This document shows, piece after piece, positions 16,916 to 33,600 of a stretch of 64,000 nt of DNA. Position 1 is the first letter of the stretch, and every line of letters starts with the position of its first letter. The notes under the pieces are model-generated. The model ran no database searches. It saw only the letters and a program-made list of their open reading frames with translations, and was not told the DNA's origin. The DNA is from Haliotis asinina (Eukaryota > Mollusca > Gastropoda > Lepetellida > Haliotidae): NCBI RefSeq assembly GCF_037392515.1, contig NC_090288.1:60063673-60127672 (forward strand), given 5' to 3'. The translations under genes were made by a program, and so were the position numbers.

Positions 16916-19114
16916 GTGCCTAATGGTCTCTGTGGTATTTTTTACTTTGAGGTGTGATTCTGATGTTCGATATCACAGGATACACACACTCCTGTACTTT
17001 CCTTGTACTTTCCTTGCACTTCAGACGCCACTGTCCCGTACGTAGCTGAACGTCAGACTATACCACATCACACGTGACCCTTTGTCTGGTGTCGCTGCAT
17101 CACCAGGTTGCCGCAGCGTTTAACACTGTCCCAGCAGAAAGACAGGTAACTGTGTAATTCTGATGACTGATGATATTACATTACAAGACAAAGCAGCCAC
17201 TCCTATGGTTTCACCCAGGGGCTCTAGTGCGACGGGTAGACAGGTTGGCCCTGTCTGTTTCTTGCGAAAATTACCGTCATCAGATTCACTTCCAATGTCC
17301 ATCAGCTCCTGGCGCCAATGTCCGTCATGTTTCCATTTGAAGCAACGTTCTTCGCGGTACAACCAGTCCTAGATGTTTGAACGTCCCATTTACAGGTAGT
17401 ATTCATGTACTAGCTAGTATTTACTTCTCCATTAGTCTGTTGTGGAACACGTGCTTCTTATCACTCAAAACGTCATGAAGTTTACCGTCTCTGTTGACAG
17501 GTGGCGAGCGTTGTTTGTCACGGTCTCGGATACGGATGAGGATTATCTAGTGCAGAACTGCACAGTGACTTCCGGCCCTTGGGGAATGTGATCCTATTAC
17601 ATGATATATCGATATTGTACGTTTAATGGACGCGTGGGATGCTGCTAGCAGTTACAATTATTTCTGTCGGCGTTCGAGGAGTGTGCATATGCCTCCCTAT
17701 TAGTCGCTATGCCTCTGGCGTTTGATTGGATAGGAACCACTTCCATCGGGAACGTACCCAGCTTTGACAAACAAAGGGTTGATCAATGCATTATTTGGCT
17801 TAAACTGACCCATTAGGCAGATATTATTTTCAATGATGCTTTGTTAGTTTTTGCTAATGAAATCTTCGATAAGTCGGTGGAAGTATGTGGATAAACGCAT
17901 CTATTTGTTTCGTGTTTTGGGTGCCAGGTAACCATGCAAGATAATAGTTCCTAGTAATAGTTGTTTGAAAACAATAAAGGTAAAAATTTCTGTGTGTTGT
18001 TTTCTAAAACATTACAACCGGTAAGGAAAAATGAGACTACATGCTGAGGGAAAATGGGTATGTTCGAGTTGATCTGTTTGGGTAACCAGTGCCTACTGTC
18101 GTCACCATATGTTAAACACCGGTGTGTGTATACCGCCTGTAGGTCTCCCAATGTCGAGACAAGTGAAACCACTACTCCAAATGGGTCGGAGGCCTGTGAC
18201 GCACATGTCTACCTATTACGTCTCTGACATTTGCAATAGAACAAAGGCCTTGGCAAATATACTGAAGTGAAAAAGAAAGGCAACATTCGGACAAATGAAA
18301 TCTCATAAAAGTAAACGTTCAACTTTATGTTGTCTTTTTTAAAATTTGACAAAAAAAACGAGAGTTGCGCCACACGGTCAAATACTTGAATGGACGTCTA
18401 GTAACGGATTCAGTTATCAGTCTGTAGCTTGGTGATAGGGTTCCCATTAAATATATGGAAATGTTCTAATACCCCAGCAGGAAAGTACCATCCCGTTAGC
18501 AGCATATATGCTGATGTTGTCCTACACACTCACTTTCTGACAAGACCAACCGAAACAGTCAGAATATACAGATGTGACTGTGTTTATGGTTAGGTCAAAA
18601 CAACAGACTAATATCATCTCCTTGTTTCGGAATGAAATAGACACGCACGATAAACACAAATTGTTTCGTTAGCCACCCAAAGTGGGATACATAGTATCCC
18701 ACTGGCAAATCAAATCACGGGAAAATGGAAAAATATTGTCAAAAAGGTTATAAAGTTATAAAATGAATTTTAGTTCATCGATGATATATGACTAAGTAAG
18801 AGTCTGCCAAGCATTTATCTTTCTGCGTACCCTGCTAATATGCCTCATACTTTGATCTCTACCTATCTGATAGCGATACACGGAATCGATTACAAGACAG
18901 ATAGAGTTGCTGTATTCTACTTTCCCTTTTAGCTGAAGGTAGACGCATGGCAGACATTTAAAAACGTGATGATTAGATGATTAGGGTGACTTGCCAGAGA
19001 GTCCGTTTTTGACGGGATACTCTGGAAGCCTAGCATGATCTCGATTTTAATATGGTTCGCGCTATAGCTGCATGGCGGACAGTGATAACAGCAGAGGTTC
19101 TAGGTGATTAGAGG
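16916..19114. other. Intergenic, no gene supported
   Basis: A minus-strand open stretch at about 17120-17390 (contains ELMDIGSESDDG) looks protein-like but lacks a start and a compatible splice context. Nothing else was recognised. Confidence 0.35.
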
Positions 19115-19275
19115 GGCTGTGGGGTATCCCAGTGGTTAAAGCGTTCGCTCCTCACGCCGGAGTCCCGGTTTTGATTCCCCACATGGGTACAATATGTGTG
19201 GCCCATTTATGGTGTCCCTGTCGTGATACTGCTGGAATATTGCTAAAAGCGGTGTAAAAACATATCCGCTAAATC
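19115..19275 (+). repeat. tRNA-derived SINE-like copy (family B)
   Basis: Head GGGGTATCCCAGTGGTTAAA with an A-box-like TGGTTAAAGCG, B-box-like GGTTTTGATTCC, then ACATGGGTACAATATGTG and the body GATACTGCTGGAATATTGCT ahead of AAAAGCGGTGTAAAA. This is a near-complete copy. Confidence 0.75.
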
Positions 19276-21045
19276 TTATAGTTTGACGCTTCTATTCCTT
19301 ACTTCCGTGTCGTTCACTTCTCTTAGCTTTGTTTGACCTTCTGATTGCCATATTGGCAAAAAGGTGAATAATCATTTATTCAGACTGGCTGTACAGCTGG
19401 TCCGTCCATCGTAGCTATTTCAGCAAATGTATTTGTCGGTGGCTCACTACACTTTACTACCACTGTGACAGTCATTCATAAACTCATGACAGAAATAATG
19501 GCATAAAATACATGTTTTATACACAATACAGAACTTAGGAAGCAACTAGGAACATACATAAAACAAGCTCGAACAGGTGTCACATATTGAATGTAAGAAT
19601 ATGTACAAAACATGATCAATGCAAAACGATGAAATGTACAAAATATGAATGATTTTATGTGTGTTTTTATAAATGAGTTAGTTCAAATCGGCAGTATTTC
19701 ATCCATATCGTGAACAATGCAATAAGTAAGTTTAAGACGTTTAATTACGAGATATCATGAAATTAGAAATCCCGCATAATGATAACACCCGTAAGTCATT
19801 AAATACTACTAAACATGTTTTTGCAAAATGTTCGCTCAGAGATAAATATCTCATCTACTCGAGCACGTTTATGTGTAACTAAATTGATCAATGGCTTTAA
19901 TATTTCGCTACAGTGGTCGTAGTTTATACACATTCTCTGGATTAAACGATACCATTATATTCTACATACAGCGACTATAAGTTGGTGAGTCAGTAATGAA
20001 GCATGCGACGGTATGAACAACAAATGCCGTTGACAAAGCAACCTAATTTGACAACGGTTTAAGAACACCTGTGCAATACACAAGAACTTGATATCCATAA
20101 AATCATATACTTCAGTATTACATATAACCTTTAATCAGAGTACGTTCAAAGGGTAGTTACAACCGAACACGTGTCAACTGCTAGTTCAGGAGGACATTAC
20201 ATGTTCAGACACTTCACAGTCCCAGGAATTGTACATGAATTATGTAACATTAAAATGCGGCTCATCTTTCATAGCATGTACCCCTCTAACAACGGGACGT
20301 CATGGCGCAGGCAGGTGCCGAGTGGAGCATATGAGAATATTCTGATTCTTGGAATTTCTAGATATCGATGTTCGATACTGCCAAGCACCAGGTAAGAATA
20401 CATGTCCTGTATCTTCCTGGGTCAGTAGAGCAAATCATACAGGCATATGTACTGAGCAAAGGTCGCAGAAACGCGTGAATGTTTTGGTACGTCTTAAAAT
20501 TTTGTTGTCATGTTTCAACAACGGGACTCTTGTGTTTGTGTTTCAGTGGTGTTCCCTTATATTCAATTTGTGGTGTGCTCTGTGTTGTACTACAACCTGC
20601 TTTGTCACCAACGTTTGTTGTGGGCGAGATTTTGTCTTGTCACTAATGAATACTGTATATAAAGAGTTTGAATCAATATCACACAATCCTATCTGCTAAT
20701 GTGTCCCGATTAATGTATGTTCTGTGACAGGTACTGTTTGTGTGGTATACGTGGCCACGGTATTGTTTGTCCTGTAGTTGGTATTATCACAGCAACACAC
20801 AGGTCTCTGGTGTTTTTCCCTAGACACATAACGCAGGCTGTGCCTCCGGAGTGAATTAGTGACATCAGCGAGCACTGCGACGTGGTCGTCGTCTGACGTC
20901 CGCCATCTCTTGGTCTGAATGGCCCTTTTGTCTCCGCCGACTGTTAGGGACAGGAACAGTATGAACGTAATACAACAGCAATCGACGTGTCATGAAACAG
21001 GACTGTCTCTTTGTCTACATTCCCCTTTACTATCAGGAATGTCTT
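19276..21045. other. Non-coding; possible cytoplasmic-tail region of the EGF receptor gene
   Basis: No firm exon. One candidate on the minus strand starts after the acceptor at about 20380 and stays open for about 37 codons to a TGA near 20270. Its phase fits the transmembrane exon, but its content is unremarkable. Confidence 0.2.
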
Positions 21046-21047
21046 AC

Positions 21048-21226
21048 GATTGGGTGGAGGATAGACATATGGTTAAAGCGCCCGCTCGTCACTTTGAAAC
21101 CCCGGGTTCGATTCCCCACATGGGTACAATATGTGAAGCCCATTTCCGGTTATATCGAGGATGGTTTCTGTGTCCCTTGTCGTGATTGGTAAAAACGGCG
21201 TGAATCCATACTCACCCGCTCGCTTA
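21048..21226 (+). repeat. tRNA-derived SINE-like copy (family B)
   Basis: Contains a perfect B-box GGTTCGATTCC and the shared CCACATGGGTACAATATGTG, with a diverged, interrupted 3' part ending CGGCGTGAATCCATACTCAC. Confidence 0.7.
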
Positions 21227-21548
21227 AAATGACACGCTGGCAATAACAAATGACAAAGATAAAGGTATATAGTGACTTTGGTTTTCCAGCCCTTTTAGTC
21301 TCCCTGCAAATTCTCTTCGTTGCAAACTCTATACCTCAATACAATCCCAGTTCAATGTATATGGTTTCAAAACACAGGCTCACTAGAGGCCAAACTTCAG
21401 CAAATCCCATTTCACACATTTCAGTGACTCTAAGATACTTCAACACAAAATCAGAACATCCTGGCAATAACTTGACAATTTCCCCTTTCAATGAGATGTT
21501 GTCGACCTGCTCCGTCCCGGCCACTCTATCAATGACGACACTACTCAC

Positions 21549-21654
21549 CACCTCCACCAAAGCGCAACGCCGACACCAACGACGGCCAGCAGGGGGAGCA
21601 GCACCGCCAATGCTACCCCCCATGGTTGTATTGTGGACTGACTGGCACTGGCTG
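21549..21654 (-). CDS. Transmembrane exon of the EGF-repeat receptor
   Basis: Acceptor CAG at 21657-21655, donor GTGAGT at 21548. It encodes ASASQSTIQPW, then a hydrophobic run of about 22 residues (GVALAVLLPLLAVVGVGVAL) ending WWR. The frame continues exactly from the last EGF exon (MTA-A). It ends in phase 2, so further exons must follow to the left. Confidence 0.8.
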
Positions 21655-24600
21655 CTGGAACAACAACATTTCAAAGAATGGCAAAGGATATTTTGTTGCA
21701 TACTATCTTCCATTTTTGCAATGCCCAGGAGATATTACAATTGCCGAAAATTTTAAGAAAGTGTTCACTTCAAAGAGTGATTGAACTAAAACAGTCGCCG
21801 AAACAGTGTATGAAATCGCATGAAACAAACATTTCTGGTTTGTTTCATTTATGGTCACGTTGACACGTGACGCCTAGATTCTGGTTGGTACGGGTAAATG
21901 TTCCAGAGGAGTGAGTGAGTTAATATTTAAAGTCACATCGACCATATTACAGCCATATCGTGACTAAATTCACCACAAATACGTGTAACGTATAAAAACC
22001 TGTCAACGAAAGACAGCAAGACCAATTAGAACATCACACGCAGTAGATTCTCCCTAAAACTGGATTCATATATTTCTAAAACTGGATTTACAAATTCGGA
22101 CAGGACAGTGTACAAATGGTCTTTAGATCACCAACAACCGAAGGTAGATCACCATACTAGGAACCATGGGAACTTACAGTACTTGCCACCTGTATGGACC
22201 CAAACTGGATTTACACCATCCCTTCAGCGGCTGGCGATGTAGGGCATACCAAGCCAAACATTAAAAGAACACAAATACTACATCTTAAAAATCTGGTAAG
22301 TTTAAATCTAGTTGTGAAAGCTTTGGGACTCACGTATCCTCTCAGGAAGACAATAATTGTACAATACTTTAAACCCCTTTGACGATCCAGCCACTAACCA
22401 GTTAAGTCACTAATTCAAACGTCCAATCTTAAAATATATAGCTATTTGCAAATCTTTTAACAAATCTAATTCTTATAAAAATGCTGTAATTTGTTTCAGA
22501 GGAACAAACCAGAGGGTGCATTTACAGACGAAAGTACACATCTCACGCCTTGGGATGTTTTTTCCGCAAAAAACTTATATAATGTATTTTTTTCATAAAA
22601 GTGTTTTGATTGTTTCTAGGTAACAAACATTCGTTCGTGTTTACATATCACCACAAATATCCTTTAAAGTGTTGCGCGAGGGATATGATTAAAATCACGC
22701 TTTAGTTGAATCAAAGTACTACTACTGCACTACTAATACTTTTTGAAAGTAACGAACATGATGGTTACCTGTCATGCATAAATCCCCTGTCCATCCAGGA
22801 GCGCAGTTGCTGTTGTTGCAGCGCCCAGTGGCAATATCACAATGCTGATCCAGACAGTGGTCACACATGGGCCTACAGTGGATACCATTTGTCCCTTGCG
22901 GACAACCTGAAACGGCACTGAAGCGTTACTTTTGCTCACTTGGTTCGTTTATGCCAGTCGTCTGGCCAGCCACTCTGTCGTCTGGTCAGTCACCCTGTCG
23001 TCTGGTCAGTCACCCTGTCGTCTGACCAGTCACTGTCGTCTGCTTCAAGGTTTGTCTGTCCATGGGTGTCGTCGCCTTCTTTACGCGCCGACCTAATTCC
23101 AAATGTGTCCTTATCGACTACGTCTGGTTATGTTGTCTTTTCAGATAACTCTTCAGTTTCGCCATTGCTCGCACAGGATCCGGTGTCTGGTGTCTGAATA
23201 CATCGCACGGTGAGGTTGACCACTACGTCCGTGTCCGTCCTGACGTCGTGTTTGGGTCGCCTTTTTCATTTTCTACCAAATATTATCTCTGGTGTTTAAA
23301 CCTGGTGACTTTCTCCAATTACACGCAGGGACACTTTTGCACATTGGTATATAGTCGAAAATTTCAAAAATCACCATTCGTTTCTTACGATATATTTCTC
23401 GCACAACATTGTTTTACAATTACTGTGAAACCCTCCATTTAAAAAAAAAATCCACGCACAGTCCTCCTTGACAGAGGATAGTTCACATTCTCTCGTGATT
23501 CTCCTCCGTTCCTTACACGACGCTACTCGTTTCTTACGATATATTTCTCGCACGACCTTCTTTCACAATTACTGTGAAACCCTTAATTATTAATACATCC
23601 CCACACAGTCCTCCTTGACATAGGATAGTTCACATTCTTTGGTAATTCTGTAACAATGTGTTTCTTCAGCGAGGTCCCTGTTTGACAAAGATGAACAACG
23701 TCCTTTTCGATGCTGAGTTTGCAGACTTCAGTCGCATCGATTTTTTGAGAAAAAAAACAAAGAAACCGAAAAATAGTCCTAGGAATCCTCAACCATCTGG
23801 CAATCTACAATTTTTTTGTCGTTCCTGATATATTCTCGTAAGACAATGTGGACATCGGATAAGAGTGAGCAGGCGACAAGTTTACGAGCAGAAACCACAA
23901 ATTCGTGGACGTCGCGTGGAATACGGCGCGAGATGACAACGCTAAACCGACGTCATTCAGAACGACAGCGACAGCAGAATGCCGTTTACTTGAGACAACA
24001 GTCTGTAGTAGTGTATATATTCCACAGCCTCTAACAACTATCATGCCTTTGGAGCCTGACTCACCTCCATGGCACCTTGGTGGTTTGTACCCGTCCTGGC
24101 AATGACCGTCAGGACACAGACCAGACGTCTTGTCACAAACTGCGTTGTGGCGACACATCCCACACGGAAACTCACAACTGCTGCCATAGAAGCCGGCTGG
24201 ACATTCTGAAACAAACCGTAAGGTGATTTCCTCATGGACTCACGTGGAAAATTGTTCAGACGAAAGGCAAAACCAGAAAATTATGACGATCTCAATCCCT
24301 CGATGTATCAATGTCTCATTGAAAGGCTGTCCCTGTGTATACAACTCTGATGTTACCTGGAGTGCATGTTGTGTCACTCAGAGGACTGGAACCGTCTACA
24401 CAACTCTGATGTTACCTGTAGTGCATATTGTGTCACTGAGAGGACAGGAACCGTCTACACAACTCTGATGTTACCTGTAGTGCATATTGTGTCACTCAGA
24501 GGACAGGAACCGTCTACACAACTCTGATGTTACCTGTAGTGCATATTGTGTCGTTGAGAGGACAGGAACCGTCTACACAACTCTGATGTTACCTGTAGTG

Positions 24601-27600
24601 CATATTGTGTCGTTGAGAGGACAGGAACCGTCTACACAACTCTGATGTTACCTGGAGTGCATGTTGTGTCACTCAGAGGACTGGAACCGTCTACACAACT
24701 CTGATGTTACCTGTAGTGCATATTGTGTCACTGAGAGGACAGGAACCGTCTACACAACTCTGATGTTACCTGTAGTGCATATTGTGTCACTGAGAGGACT
24801 GGAACCGTCTACACAACTCTGATGTTACCTGGAGTGCATATTGTGTCGTTGAGAGGACAGGAACCGTCTACACAACTCTGATGTTACCTGTAGTGCATAT
24901 TGTGTCACTCAGAGGACAGGAACCGTCTACACAACTCTGATGTTACCTGTAGTGCATATTGTGTCGTTGAGAGGACAGGAACCGTCTACACAACTCTGAT
25001 GTTACCTGTAGTGCATATTGTGTCGTTGAGAGGACAGGAACCGTCTACACAACTCTGATGTTACCTGGAGTACATATTGTGTCGTTGAGAGGACAGGAAC
25101 CGTCTACACAACTCTGATGTTACCTGTAGTGCATATTGTGTCGTTGAGAGGACAGGAACCGTCTACACAACTCTGATGTTACCTGTAGTGCATATTGTGT
25201 CATTGAGAGGACAGGAACAGTCTACACAACTCTGATGTTACCTGTAGTGCATATTGTGTCGTCGAGAGGACAGGAACCGTCTACACAACTCTGATGTTAC
25301 CTGTAGTGCGTATTGTGCCACTGAGGGGGACTGGAACCGTCTACACAACTCTGATGTTATCTGTAGTGCATATTGTGTCATTGAGAGGACAGGAACCGTC
25401 TACACAACTCTGATGTTACCTGCATATTGTGTCGTCGAGAGGACAGGAACCGTCTACACAACTCTGATGTTACCTGTAGTGCGTATTGTGTCACTGAGGG
25501 GGACTGGAACCGTCTACACAACTCTGATGTTATCTGTAGTGCATATTGTGTCATTGAGAGGACAGGAACCGTCTACACAACTCTGATGTTACCTGTAGTG
25601 CATATTGTGTCACTGAGAGGACTGGAACCGTCTACACAACTCTGACGTTACCTGTAGTGTATATTGTGTCATTGAGAGGACAGGAACCGTCTACACAACT
25701 CTGACGTTACCTGTAGTGTATATTGTGTCACTGAGAGGTCCCGAACTGTCTATATAACTCTGATGTTACCTGTAGTGTATATTGTGTCATTGAAAGGTCC
25801 CGAACTGTCTATACAACTCTGACGTTACCAGTAGTACACCTTGTTCCCTTGTATCCCGGGACACAGCGGGATGGACAGGAACCATCAACATTGTTGCACG
25901 TGACGTTGTCGGCACAGTTTCCACACTCTGATGCGCAGTTGTCCCCATAATATCCATAAGGACACTCTGGAACACGTTGATAACCTTTTGTGATTTTTAG
26001 CAACACAGGGCTCAATATGTGGCGCCTTCTTGTCAATAGACCACAAAGGTACAAACTTGTGCAATGTTATCTGCTTCATTGTTTGGAATTTGAAATCCTT
26101 AATGATGTCTAAATAAAAAAAATAAACAGTAAAGTGGAAAATTAAAAACTAATTAATCACCCTCCAAGGCACGAAATCATATTCTACAGCTTATGTAGTA
26201 ACAGTTAACCAGTTTGGGATTTTTTTTAATACGCAATCTCTTTGAAAATATCTGTTTTTGCAGAAAGTATCTGAAACATTCCCCAATCCAATCCACCTAT
26301 AAAATCGCCGGGGTAATAGCAAAGAATGTCACATTTATAGAAAATTGAGGAGTATTTGTTACCTTGGTTACAGTAATTCGAGGTCCATCCTGGGTCACAG
26401 TCACCTGGACACAAACCGGATGTCATGTTACAGGTCACATTGCCCAAGCAATGTCCGCACGCTGAACACAGTTCCCCGTAGTAACCTTGCCTGCAGTCTG
26501 AAATAGTGAATATGAAGTGGAATCTTCGCCTGCATTATCCCACCGAAACATCTCGACGGGAAAACTTGATTGATGGAATACAAATGTATAATTTAATTCT
26601 ACACATTTAACGATAGTATCATGTTCAGAGTGACAGGAAGTAGTGTACATTATCCAGTGACATACCCATTTACATCATTATCCAGTGACATACCCATTTA
26701 CAACATTATACAGTGACATACCCATTTACAACATTATCCAGTGACATACCCATTTACAACATTATCCAGTGACATACCCATTTACAACATTATCCAGTGA
26801 CATACCCATTTACAACATTATCCAGTGACATACCCATTTACAACATTATACAGTGACATACCCATTTACAACGAAAGGTTTACGATAAGAATGGTTTGGG
26901 AAAAATACCGTTATAAACCGAAAGTGAACTAAGACCTCTTACAGTCTGTTTAAGATAACAATGCTAAATATGCTCCACCAATCCTATACTGCTGGTTGGC
27001 ATTATTTCCGGTATTGCCATGCTTGATCTGTCTCACCTAGACACATTCTTCCCTTCCAGCCGTCCTGGCAGCCATGTGTGCAGGTGCCCGACGTCCGGTC
27101 ACAGTTCTCCCCGTACAGACAGTGACCACACACCTTCTTACACATGGGGCCATAACGACCAACCACGCAGTCTGCCAGACACATACATGACTCCAAAGTA
27201 GAAATCTATATTTATTCATAACGGGAAATCATTAACAGTTTTATGACATCGGCTATAACTTGTATTGAAACTTTGGTCAATCTCCTGTGTACAATAATTA
27301 CAATGCAGACCAAGGATATGTTTCAGGGTCGCTCAAGCCACTCTACACTTTAGTGGTAGCTATGGAAAAGACCGCAAAGATTACGGTACAGAGATAGTGT
27401 TTCTTCGTTTCAATACAAACGAAATCTGTACAAAGTGTATTGTGTCCGTCTTTAATCAAATGATCATTACGTAACCAAAGGAAGTACATGTAGTCTAAAC
27501 AGGTTGCCTCCAAAACTCATCAGAGGAGTAGGATAAGCAGTACATTACAGACATTTAAGTTTTTGGACCTGGAAGAGATCGTTGCGAAGAAAGTCCTTTC

Positions 27601-30600
27601 ACCTGCATTTGCATTTTGCTTTGAAATCGTTCATGCCCTGTATGGAATCCTCGTTACCTGTACACGTGTCGCCGTCGAAGTTCTGCTGGCAACCCAATGG
27701 GCACCTGCCAGTGGCTTTGTCACACACGCTCGTATTGGCACAGCGTCCACATGTCATGTTGCAGCTCTCACCATGCAGCCCTGCCGTGCAGTCTGTGAAC
27801 ACATTATATCGCAAACACTGCTTAAAAGGTAAGGTTTATAGCAGGTATGACCAGGATTTCCTGTCTGAAACTAAAGCACTGGGTTTTATGCAGTTTTATT
27901 TAGCAATATTCCAGCAAACTCAGGGCGGGAGCCACCAGAAATGGGCTTATTGTACCAATGATGGCAACTGAACCCGGGACTTAGGCATGGCGAACGGACG
28001 CTTTAACTACTGGGCAATCTCGTCGTCCCTTAAACACAAGGTAACATTGAAACGGATTTTCATTAGATGAAACAGTAATGAACGTTATTAGGCTTACTTT
28101 GACAGAGTTGACCAGTAAACCCCAGTTCACATCCGCCAGCGCAGTTCCCTGTGCGGACATCACAGGCCACGTTGTTGTGACACGCCCCGCACTCGAACCT
28201 GCAGTTGGCGCCGTATGTGTTATTGACACATGCTGGAAAGGGCGAGATCAGGATACACCTCTGTGTTATTGACATGAACACGATAAGCCTTTACTTCATA
28301 GACAAGACCACTATAAACTGCTTATTTATAGACAGGAACACGATGCACCTCTATTTTACAGACAAGAACAGGAACAATCTCAATTTTATAGACAAGAACG
28401 GGGCAAACTTCAGTTTTATAGACAAGAACTTAATGAAAGGACCTCTATTTTACAGAAAAAATTATAAGCTTCTGTTTATTTCCAGCTAAATATGTATGAC
28501 CAGAAATTATTGAGGATGTAAAGATTGTAATCTTTGTATTCGTTCATTACCCAAGTATTAAATGTGGAAATTAGCAGAACATGATTCCAGATTCAAAGAC
28601 AGGTGACAGTTATTTTGTCAAGTGACAATGGGCAGCACTGGGATTCAATGCGGCGGGGCATACTGCTTATCAAAGAAGTTGGAAAGTCGTGGTCCATGCT
28701 GTTCCAATATCAGACCGCCTCCTCTTTCATTTCAGCAATATTTGTCAGATTTTTCTCATTGACACTTTCATTCGTAAGTCCCCAAACATTTTGTTTTGGG
28801 ATTTAGGTCCGAGCTATAGCTTGGCCAATCTAATGATGAAATATTTTAGGTCCGAAACCAGGCCTATGGATGCTTTGAACCATATTTTCGGTCGTTCTCT
28901 TTCTGGAAACTCCAAAAAAATCTCAACGTGAACAGATGGAAGCAAATGTAGTGTCTAAGATCACAGTTATTGGTGACGTCAAGCTAGTGACGACTGAGCT
29001 AGTGTTGCATGTAGACATGTATGTTAAAGACGCGTGCGTTAATGAAGATTAAAGTCTCAACGCAAAACAACTGTTCGTCTACTTCTCAGTAAATGTCCCT
29101 GACGTTGAAACACTTTGTACCGCTCACTGTTCATATTCCCTTCACGGAAAGAGACGAGGAGTCACGAATGAGGAAACAGCCACACATGACTTTCATCTGG
29201 GAAATTCGCATTGTCCCAGTTATAATGTCTGTGCTGTAAGCACCAGTTCAACCTTCGCTCTTTCTGTTCAGGTTTATGATCGGTGATGGAATTTCTCGAC
29301 TTTTCTGCCAACCCATTGCATGGAGCTCAGTTCTAATTGTCTCCTTACAGACAGCCACAGTTCATCTATCAGTCACATCGAGCCTTAAGTTTTCTAAACT
29401 CCATGGTTTGTTTTTAGAAACAAGAATACCGAGTCGCCTCTTGTCACCGACATTCAATTTTCTGGGCCTACCTGCGCCTGGTGCTCAGTGCCATATCCAT
29501 TGGCCATATTTTACAGATAAACATCAGACAATGGGATGCCTCTTCTACTTAAAACCACTTCAGCTGATCTGATGTCCCTTTTACACTACTCTAAAATCAA
29601 CTTCCTCTTCCCTACATTATCCGTACAAGGATCACTGAAATTGTCGTCTGCGGGCAAGTAAACAAAGGGGAATAACTCTTCAGAAACTAATGAAGATGAT
29701 TAACTGAGTTGTCGCTCTTGAATGAGACCAAGACTTAGTACTTGATAGCCGGACAAGGGGAGAGGATAAAATTTAATATGAAAACATATTTCTACTAAAT
29801 CTGGAAACATCAGTTAAAAAGAAAAGATATTTATAACTTAAAAAGACATCTTATCCCTATATGAGCATACTAACCGCCCTTTACTCAGACAGAAAGTTGA
29901 TCTACGAAAATCACCTTCACAATTACAAGTATTCCATGACCAAACCACAACAACTTAGTTTTCTGGAACTGTGAGAAGTATACATCTTAACACGTTCGTA
30001 AACATGAACTGGTACCATGACCTTGATGCGCTCTGTCGACTTACGTAACGGTGGAGCTACATGTTATGATTCAAAATCTTTGTTTCTGCGATAATGGTAT
30101 GAGTGCATGTTTTATGTACTAAGGGATATACGTGCGATAATATGATTGACCGCGTGCATATACAGGGTGTGTGAATACAACCGCTACCTATTCATGATCA
30201 ACTATCATCAAAGGGAGTTATATTTTGTTCTAATAGTCAAGATTAATACTGACAAATAACCGTACATACTCTATAGCACGTATATGGGTTCACAACACCT
30301 CTCTCAGCAATACCTCTGGTACTATATATGATTAATATTGATCAATTACCGTACATATTCTATAGCACGTATATCGGTTCACACCACTCTCAGCAATACC
30401 TCTGGTATTATATATGATTAATATTGATCAATTAGCGTACATATTCTATAGCACGTAGGCACCCGTGGCGAGCCACCTCCTCGTGGTGGGTGCTGGGTAA
30501 CGCCAAGAGCTCGCCGACACCCCCGTTGTGGACCCGGGGGGATATTTGGTCCACCAACCCGTTTGCCGTGGGTTGCGGCCCTGTGTCGGTGGAGGACGGG

Positions 30601-33600
30601 AGTCTGGGGGTTGAGGGCACTGGGGGCCTGCAATCGTGTTCCCTTTGCCCAACATACCCCTTCGACCCTTACTTCACCTAGACGGGTGGTTGAATGGGCC
30701 CGGTTCAACCAATCGGCTGGTCATGCCAAGCCCTGTGTATGGACTATATATATGTCAATGCACAAATTTTATTTGGAATTGTTTGATTTTCGGACTTGGC
30801 CTTATTATTACAGTGGCGTTATTTGGATTTTGTAATATGATAATTTGTACTTGAATTTTGCCTAGAGTCTTATGCCCAGAAGGCGGTGGCTCATGGGCCA
30901 ATCTGGTGGATTAGTTATTCATAATTCTTCCGCTAGAGTATATCATCTGAGTATCCTTGGTGCTGCAAGTCGGAGACCCACTAGCGTTTAGCACTGTCCT
31001 TGTGATACTCCGTGGTGGGTGGGGAGCTCAGATGATGAAATCTAACTAACTAAACATGGCTTACGAAACCCCTCAAAAAAAGAGCAAACGTCAACTTGAT
31101 ACTGATCCCGTTGAAACTGACCACAGACTGCCCAACTCAATTGATTACTGGCCACGTTTTCTTGTTGTTGAGACTATTGACAAGACCCCTTTAAAGTTGA
31201 ATCCTTTTGCCGTAGCTAAAGGTATACAAGGCATCGCTGGTGATGTTAAAAACATTAGGCGATTACGTTCCGGTGCCCTTCTGGTTGAGTGTGCAAAAAG
31301 ACAGCAAGCCACCAATCTTATGAGCACAGAATCTTTTGTCGGCATTCCAGTTACGATCTCGGCTCACAAAACACTCAACACGAGCAAAGGAATTGTCAGG
31401 GACCGTGAACGTTTGTTTGCTGACATGTCAGAACTTGACATCGCCTCAGAGATGAAGGAGCAAGGTGTCCTTTTTGTCAAACGTTTTACAACCCGTAGAA
31501 ATGATGCTACTGTCAACACAAACACATATTTGTTTTCTTTCTCTTCTCCAAATGTTCCAAAATCACTGAAAGCAGGATACTGTAACATCCAGGTTGAAAT
31601 GTACATTCCAAACCCTCTTCGATGTTTCAAATGCCAAAAGTTCGGCCAAGGGGTTAATAACTGCACATTGTCTGTTGTTTGTGCTCACTGTGGTGAAAAG
31701 ACACATACAACAGAAGATTGTGACAGTAACGTTAAGAAATGTACAAACTGCACTGGTGCCCATTCATCCTTTTCTAAAGAATGTCCTGTCTGGAAGTTTC
31801 ACATGGAGATCAACAAAATAAAATTCACCCGAAACATTAGTTTTGCAGATGCCAAAAAACTGGTCCAAAGTTCTGAACCTAAAGAAAGCTATGCTTCTAT
31901 AACTAAAACACCGTCAGAAGCAAGGATTACAAAATCAGCCACAAGCTGTCAAACTGACTTGACGTGGATTACATCAGAAGCTCCTCTGATTACTTCACCT
32001 ACAATATCTACCCAAACGCCAGAGTCACATTCGTCCCAAATCCAATCAGTAGCATCATCTGATCATGAGGCATCTTCTCAGTCAACTCCAAAATCTTCGG
32101 AAACCGTTAAAACTAAACCTAAAAGGCCAGATCCTTTGAAAAAACTAAGTGGCAGAACCCCGAAAGGGTCACAAAACAAGATTCAGTTGTTTAATAAATA
32201 TGGGTCACTTGAAGACATGGACGTTTCTGAAAACGTCCATTCTAGGGCACATAGCTTGTCGCCCTCCAAAAGAGTGCGGGGTAGATCCCCCATAAATCCC
32301 CCTAAAAGATAGTTTATTCCAATAATATTGTACAGTGGAACTGCAGAGGATTGAGGACTAATTTACATGAATTACAGCTATTAGTCCAAGATTTTACACC
32401 TTCAGCGTTATGTCTCCAAGAGACATATTTAAAACAAACAGATACATTTGACCTTCGTCATTTTAATGCATATCATTGTTTTTCACCTCCGGGTGATAGG
32501 GCCACTGGAGGATCATCCATTCTAGTGAGACAAAACGTTATTCAAAGCCCTGTTTCACTTAATACTAATATGCAGGCTGTTGCTGTGAGAATTACTTTAC
32601 ATGTAGCATTGACGCTATGCTCTCTGTATATTTCTCCGTCTTCGACGTTTCCTAAAACCGATCTCCAAGCTCTATATGACCAACTCCCGAAGCCCTGTAT
32701 TATAATGGGAGATTTAAATGGCCACAACCCACTCTGGGGTGGTGTAAATACAAACACTAAAGGTAAGTTGTTGGAGGACTTTTGTTCCGACAATGACTTA
32801 TGTATTTATAATGATGGTTCCAACACATATTTACACCCTGGTACAGGGACCTATTCTGCTCTCGACTTGTCATTGACAAATTCCGAACTATTAAACGAAT
32901 TCGAATGGTCAGTCCACGATGACCTCTGTGGAAGTGACCATTTTCCTACTATGCTAAAAGCTGTAACTCCATCCGATGTTCCTCCATCATCAAGACGAAA
33001 TTTTAAAAAGGCTAACTGGGCTTTATATCAAACACTGTGTGCTGAAAAACTTAAACCTGAACGTTTTATTGACGTTCCTGATGCTATTAAATGCTTTTCT
33101 GATGATCTGAATTCCATAGCTGATGAGTGTATACCAAAGTCCTCTGTAGTTCCACACATAACAAAACCATGGTTCAACGATGAGTGCAAACAAGCTAGGA
33201 AGGCAAGGAAAAAAGCAGAACATTATTTCCGTCGCCATCCTATGGTGCATAATTTAAATAAATTTAAAATTTCAAATGCTAAAGCACGGCGTACTTTTAG
33301 ACAGAACAAACGCCAATCTTGGCAAAATTATGTATCTAAAATAAATTCTCGGACACCCATGCCCAAGGTATGGAACATGGTCCAGAAAATCAAAGGTAAA
33401 GGTACTATATCTACTGTCCATCATCTTAAACATGGAGATCAATTACTTACTGATAAATCAGATATTGCGAATAAACTGGGCGAAACTCTTGCTAAACATT
33501 CTTCCTCTTCTAAGTATGTACCTAAATTTCAGCAGTATCAAAAACAACAAGAAAAGAAAACTATTAATTTCAATTCTGATAATGGGGAAGATTATAATGA

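Follow-up and report, generated by a model that had tools for sequence, protein, structure and literature searches.

A 59-bp minisatellite at an exon end of an abalone EGF-type gene repeats a potential 5′ splice site about 25 times

What happens to an exon when its own 5′ splice site is followed by some 25 copies of itself, and how could such an arrangement arise? The question is raised by an EGF-type gene on the minus strand of a 64,000-nucleotide stretch of the Haliotis asinina genome (contig NC_090288.1, positions 60,063,673 to 60,127,672; hereafter, the window, with position 1 at its first letter). One intron of this gene is mostly minisatellite, and the array begins at the 3′ end of the preceding exon. 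An original prediction from the letters of the window had proposed that the exon end and its donor were duplicated and expanded, leaving a row of decoy donors that could titrate U1 snRNP, alter the length of the exon or differ in number among individuals. The array is most likely a neutral by-product that would nevertheless create real donor competition. The features needed for the argument are as follows.

24341–25835, minus strand: minisatellite (Tandem Repeats Finder (TRF): period 59, 25.4 copies, 93% matches), its first 7 nt inside the exon.
25829–25966, minus strand: EGF-like exon preceding the array, fifth of seven placed; 138 nt, phase 1-1, eight cysteines, end CTACTG.
25823–25831, minus strand: presumed authentic 5′ splice site CTG/GTAACG, with the exon/intron border at 25829/25828.
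25967–25991, minus strand: acceptor region of the array-bearing exon.
24206–25828, minus strand: whole intron, 1,623 nt, of which the array takes up 1,488 nt; 151 nt run from the last donor copy onward.
25711–25828, minus strand: two founder-like units, which carry GTTCGGGACC and have states in common with the 3′ flank.
24304–24356, minus strand: last unit, grading into unrepeated intron and aligning to the founder-like first unit.
25533, minus strand: decoy with AT replacing GT.
25360, minus strand: second decoy with AT replacing GT, apparently through duplication of the block that holds the first.
25809–25811, minus strand: in-frame TAG at intron nt 18–20, upstream of every decoy.
24065–24205, minus strand: next EGF exon by exon scan, with the donor GAG/GTGAGT.

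Read along the gene, the intron offers 26 donor positions, namely the real one at 25828 and 25 downstream copies, of which 21 read CAG/GTAACA, two CAG/GTAACG and two CAG/ATAACA, so that 23 have GT and two have AT. This bears out the proposed multiplication of the splice site about 25 times. The unit had been given as 59 bp, which holds from donor to donor for 22 of the 25 units; two measure 60 bp and one, with 5 bp missing, 54 bp. Likewise, the array had been said to start exactly at the exon boundary. It does begin at the 3′ end of the exon (predicted to end at 25829), with the TRF edge at 25835 placed 7 nt inside it. Within the array, the GTTCGGGACC of the first two units is replaced by GTTCC(T/A)GTCC in later ones, and the two AT copies sit in blocks that resemble each other's copies (units 5–6 and 8–9). 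Genome-wide searches were run on the 1.14-Gb genome, in which egg-lysin matches, six of them on contig C14 above the cut-off of the family, indicate an abalone-like vetigastropod (14 control genomes gave none); a DNA search met the array once, a count that falls short of proving uniqueness, as the search skips very common words.

The case for an origin from the exon end rests on both edges of the array. On the exon side, ACTACTG matches the unit end ACTACAG at 6/7 nt in fixed register (5/6 for CTACTG and CTACAG). A 6/7 match recurs at 219 of 124,866 other window positions and at two of 102 other GGTAA sites, and in an extension test 36 of 5,000 random window positions did as well. The exon-side similarity is thus above chance but short, and the units align to the exon boundary better than to chance positions over those 6/7 nt. 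Homology reaching 16–20 nt back into the exon (the first unit matches there at 11/16 and 12/20 without gaps) was dropped: the same stretch also aligns to the 3′ flank of the intron and the claim is, therefore, limited to 6–7 exon nt. Similarity was also said to continue into the intron, which is not independent evidence, as copy 1 consists of the first 59 intron nt. On the intron side, the 3′ flank (24356 to ~24304) aligns to the first unit from +1 to +53 and then diverges. It scores 53 against the first unit, 43 against the second, 40 against the consensus unit and 35 against a middle unit, and beyond +20 its match to the first unit is better than in 500 of 500 shuffles. Because the flank leaves the first unit at +53, the CTACAG of the units needs a source other than the flank. 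The exon end would supply it and is its likely source, though on the strength of few bases. In the simplest reading, both array edges would retain the old state and the intron would once have been about 151 nt long. The repeated potential 5′ splice sites then probably derive from the exon's own, as proposed, on the evidence of the 6/7 exon nt and the 3′ flank together. A genome search at the DNA level, with one candidate place scored, gave no array-free copy of the exon to serve as an outgroup.

A separate similarity links the exon to the later units. The change that distinguishes these from the founder-like units creates GACGGTTCCTGTCC, and the exon holds GATGGTTCCTGTCC at 25886–25873, out of register with the repeat; units from 25710 on share 13/14 nt with this exon stretch. 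Outside the array, no other part of the window comes within one mismatch, and 2/1,794 other window pieces score equally against the unit. The similarity, noticed post hoc, could be explained by a short change in the array with the exon as its template.

We compared the donors using splice-site matrices built from 67 EGF exons at 29 paralogous loci of the same genome, on both strands. A single donor candidate was present in 53 of the 67; the ends of the others were chosen by a human matrix, and at least one exon end is doubtful (L032 at 355, inside a 21-bp array). On this scale, the real donor scores 3.40 bits, with one of 67 paralogous donors lower, and the decoys score 6.39 and 6.60 bits, with 9 and 13 of 67 lower. 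Duplex energies with U1 point the same way (−8.0 and −8.3 kcal/mol for decoys versus −5.3 for the real donor), as does accessibility predicted by local folding (0.0035 at the real site versus a median of 0.075 over the 25 copies). The acceptor of the array-bearing exon, at 2.77, lies below all 67 EGF acceptors. By these predictions, both borders of the exon are weak and better donors follow it. The decoys are, therefore, credible predicted donors that rank above the real one by matrix and U1 energy. To call them consensus-like, as was done originally, is too strong, as they have C at +5 and fall in the lower fifth of the paralogous EGF donors. A donor of the type CAG/GTAACG or CAG/GTAACC also ends two other predicted exons of the gene (27658 and 22769), and four of the 67 paralogous donors are GTAAC.

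The TAG at intron nt 18–20 lies ahead of the first decoy, which is at +59. Every mRNA spliced from a decoy would contain this stop, so that a truncated or decayed mRNA is to be expected and not a longer protein. With 59 mod 3 = 2, and with the TAG, the units are not in frame for protein length variants. The exon would grow to 197 nt with the first decoy and 256 nt with the second; skipping of the 138-nt exon keeps the frame. A study with human data (PMC9225289) offers several rules for the choice of donor. There, 86% of events have the stronger donor as the major one, and in about 60% of all events, without correction for strength, splicing favors the downstream donor. With near-equal donors and long introns, preference goes to the upstream one, which lies closest across the exon, and this donor alone was used in minigenes built with two strong donors of equal strength; when extended exons exceed 250 nt, strength counts less. 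On this evidence, splicing could keep to the real donor or leak to the first decoys. We lean towards the real donor because the frames of the gene are open and the array is tolerated.

Are donors then favoured starting points for repeats? An exon-based comparison covered 74 EGF exons (the 67 paralogous ones and seven of this gene) and counted sites with at least two near copies (13/16 nt) within 400 nt. Donors had such copies downstream in 3/74 cases, namely this array and the paralogous pair L032/L033, compared to 1/74 for acceptors, 3/74 for intron position +40 and 0/74 for intron position −56. The +40 cases comprise L030, this array and the L032 exon at 355, which is doubtful; this array enters both the donor and the +40 counts. 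In these small numbers, there is no sign that donors stand out as repeat targets; in these introns, a minisatellite seems able to begin at any position, at times on a splice site. A further flag raised at 900 nt, at the L042 donor, was rejected, its copies being the donors of neighboring EGF exons. In the paralogous EGF genes L032 (2800–3131) and L033 (2318–2680; both on the reverse strand of the loci), repeats ~32–36 bp apart carry the exon end TCAACAAG and a GTGAG donor, and use of the +36 donor in L032 would add 12 residues in frame. At L048 (548), an EGF-exon acceptor has three near copies within 400 nt upstream.

Arrays of similar build exist elsewhere in the genome. We scanned for three CAGGTAAG words at spacings of 14–44, 14–38 and 42–72, with places listed on contigs C1 and C2 only, and took 21 array places from those listed. 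The 5′ edge was readable at 13, while it lay beyond the sequence or was unclear at seven (L060 group, L091, L092, L093, L094, L096 and L099); L056 was rejected as not being a tandem array by TRF. Among the 13 readable arrays, eight loci start at a coding-like exon end, representing seven events with the paralogous pair L097/L098 counted as one, two are uncertain (L085 and L089) and no exon was found at L055, L087 and L090. The matches between exon end and unit end at these loci, with the number of random positions that did equally well, are given below.

L057: 5/5 nt, equaled by 8/5,000 random positions; CBM_14 (E 0.0022), under the cut-off.
L097 and L098: 27/27 each, 0/5,000; L098 peptide with MFS_1 (2.7e-07) under the cut-off and Sugar_tr and BT1 over theirs.
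L100: 47/51, 0/5,000; TSP_1 over the cut-off.
L095: 30/37, 0/5,000; open frame only, with no Pfam match or a weak one under the cut-off.
L101: 18/20, 0/5,000; open frame only, with no Pfam match or a weak one under the cut-off.
L088: 11/11, 0/5,000; open frame only, with no Pfam match or a weak one under the cut-off.
L086: 28/29; open frame only, with no Pfam match or a weak one under the cut-off.
L085, uncertain: 7/9, 105/5,000.
L089, uncertain, with no clear exon: 15/16, 0/5,000.

The MFS-transporter paralogs L097 and L098 lie ~76 kb apart on opposite strands and have a 60-bp array at the same exon end, which, therefore, predates the gene duplication or was converted. At the TSP1 exon of L100, each 54-bp unit has a GTAAG, and the first and last read in frame to a final GTATGT (L104); this arrangement would be IFI6-like (see below) or a coding repeat, as the array may simply be exonic. 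Raw counts of places for the donor word versus the word read backwards were 855 versus 151 (gaps 14–44), 592 versus 135 (14–38) and 879 versus 224 (42–72), values inflated by single arrays that give dozens of places each; AAGGTGAG arrays gave 763 versus 431 places. Counted by hand, separate arrays among the places listed on C1 and C2 numbered 12 versus 6, and a genome-wide excess of donor-word arrays is, therefore, not claimed. A search of a phage collection gave no match, nor did searches of solved structures with two sister-exon peptides.

We consider it fairly probable, from the sequence features above, that a duplication of exon end and intron grew into an array with no dedicated function and that the real donor is the one mainly used. 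From the observed array anatomy and the founder-like sequence at both ends, we infer that a slip or unequal exchange in the ~151-nt intron duplicated a 59-bp piece, made up of the last 6–7 exon nt and the first 52–53 intron nt, and that duplications of single units and of blocks expanded this founder pair to 26 copies. The copies would still be potential 5′ splice sites, and the predictions place 23 above the real one in strength. The authentic donor would still be the main one, as it is nearest to the acceptor of the exon and the intron is now presumably long enough for exon definition. Some leakage to the first one or two decoys, or in-frame skipping of the weakly flanked exon, could occur, and leakage would lead to the stop codon and probably to mRNA decay. 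Several points weigh against this account. The exon-side match at this locus spans only 7 nt, and the 74-exon control is small and noisy. Both the 86% and the ~60% figures from the cited human study favor the decoys and, thus, leave the predicted winner uncertain. Diversity in the donor core is 0.016 versus 0.059 elsewhere (20 units); because seven of 59 circular windows are equally low, selection on the core is not distinguishable and is neither shown nor excluded. Finally, the gene may be little expressed.

Other explanations give the decoys a larger or a smaller part. The stronger decoys might often win, each yielding a stop, so that array length would set the amount of functional mRNA through nonsense-mediated decay, as a copy-number rheostat. 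We regard this switch as unlikely, though not far-fetched: the weak real donor, the low-ranking acceptor, the higher decoy scores, the TAG ahead of every decoy and the human preference for stronger sites all agree with it, but exons from the second decoy on (at least 256 nt) enter the size range above 250 nt in which strength matters less, and selection would be expected to act against this load if the gene is needed. More doubtful still is a role for uncut decoys as a landing pad that holds U1 downstream, aiding recognition of the weak exon or guarding the intron from early polyadenylation. Weak exons are indeed better recognized when engineered U1 molecules are bound downstream of them. The decoys offer seven contiguous U1 pairs (by eye) versus a mismatch at −2 in the real site, and they surpass it in U1 energy next to an exon weak on both sides; yet donors are repeated no more often than a nearby intronic site, so there is no sign of selection for such arrays.

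The array might also be a plain intronic minisatellite that starts at the exon by accident, with its 7-nt exon match due to chance. The match is indeed short and equaled at two of 102 GGTAA sites, and the introns here are rich in arrays. Such an accident would require the array edge and the match to coincide, would leave the unit end CTACAG without a source, as the 3′ flank diverges there, and would have to accommodate sister cases that match over 5 to 47 exon nt; we therefore hold it to be very unlikely. Least credible, to the point of being hardly tenable, is recursive splicing or an intron-birth array, in which every AG/GT junction would be both acceptor and donor. The units do read ACAG/GTAAC, but the mean acceptor score of the 23 junctions is 0.07 bits (best, 3.22) and 22 of them score below all 67 EGF acceptors, which disfavors recursive splicing and speaks against the gain of an intron between the copied splice signals. 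Use is not excluded by a low score alone, as the exon's own acceptor also falls below all 67.

The gene itself was outlined by an exon scan of 18000–33000, in which seven phase 1-1 EGF exons could be placed. The array-bearing exon is the fifth of these; its original designation as exon 7 followed a numbering of its own. The exons placed in addition to those above are listed here.

28232–28098 and 27792–27658, minus strand: placed EGF exons 1 and 2, phase 1-1.
27171–27037 and 26497–26363, minus strand: placed EGF exons 3 and 4, phase 1-1.
22906–22769, minus strand: placed EGF exon 7, phase 1-1.

Joined peptides of the placed exons match EGF_laminin overall (E 9.6e-06), over the cut-off, with no single stretch passing alone. 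The array-bearing exon has 149 other scored genome matches at 37–58% identity (150 of 1,271 candidates were scored), two of which are exons of the same gene. Three further minisatellites lie between or just upstream of placed exons, at 26647–26872 (28 bp), 28325–28429 (30 bp) and 22957–23042 (20 bp). On the plus strand, 31050–32312 holds an open frame of 420 aa with zinc-knuckle-like CCHC motifs, presumably a retroelement ORF1.

A minisatellite in human IFI6 (6-16, G1P3) was reportedly described by Turri et al. in 1995 as providing multiple splice donor sites. The two cases are alike in that a minisatellite supplies several splice donors, predicted from sequence alone in the abalone; they differ in that the abalone unit, at 59 bp, is out of frame and a stop precedes the first decoy, whereas the IFI6 unit is short, at 12 bp, and in frame. 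According to PMC4526556, two downstream repeat units of IFI6 serve as donors, giving three mRNAs. The titles and abstract openings listed in searches of open-licence papers gave no further case of a donor minisatellite besides IFI6. Intron gain by tandem duplication is related in that a duplication across an intron–exon boundary copies splice signals; there, the intron 1/exon 2 acceptor boundary was crossed and a new intron arose, whereas the abalone array has 25 copies of the donor side and gives no indication of a new intron. With ordinary intronic minisatellites and variable number tandem repeats, the array has in common its period, unit turnover, block duplications and founder-like edge units, and it differs in that its unit includes an exon end and a donor-like site. 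The kind is thus already known from IFI6; new is the out-of-frame, stop-coupled form with 23 decoys predicted to be better than the real site, and the signs of recurrence of donor minisatellites within one genome are also new.

For this abalone genome, one can imagine donor minisatellites as a recurrent mutable regulatory layer across EGF, MFS-transporter, TSP1, chitin-binding-like and other genes, in which copy number would tune splicing: out-of-frame arrays would act as a decay-coupled rheostat, and in-frame ones (TSP1, 54 bp) would yield protein length variants; we give this broad idea only a slim chance. More generally, the choice of the spliceosome among near-identical donors is usually studied with minigenes. 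Here, a natural case appears to provide one exon followed by 23 near-identical, near-evenly spaced and predicted stronger donors, with a stop codon that would report each error, and the same genome holds several more similarly built genes. Such a natural case could separate the rules by which a donor is chosen: proximity across the exon, strength or proximity across the intron.

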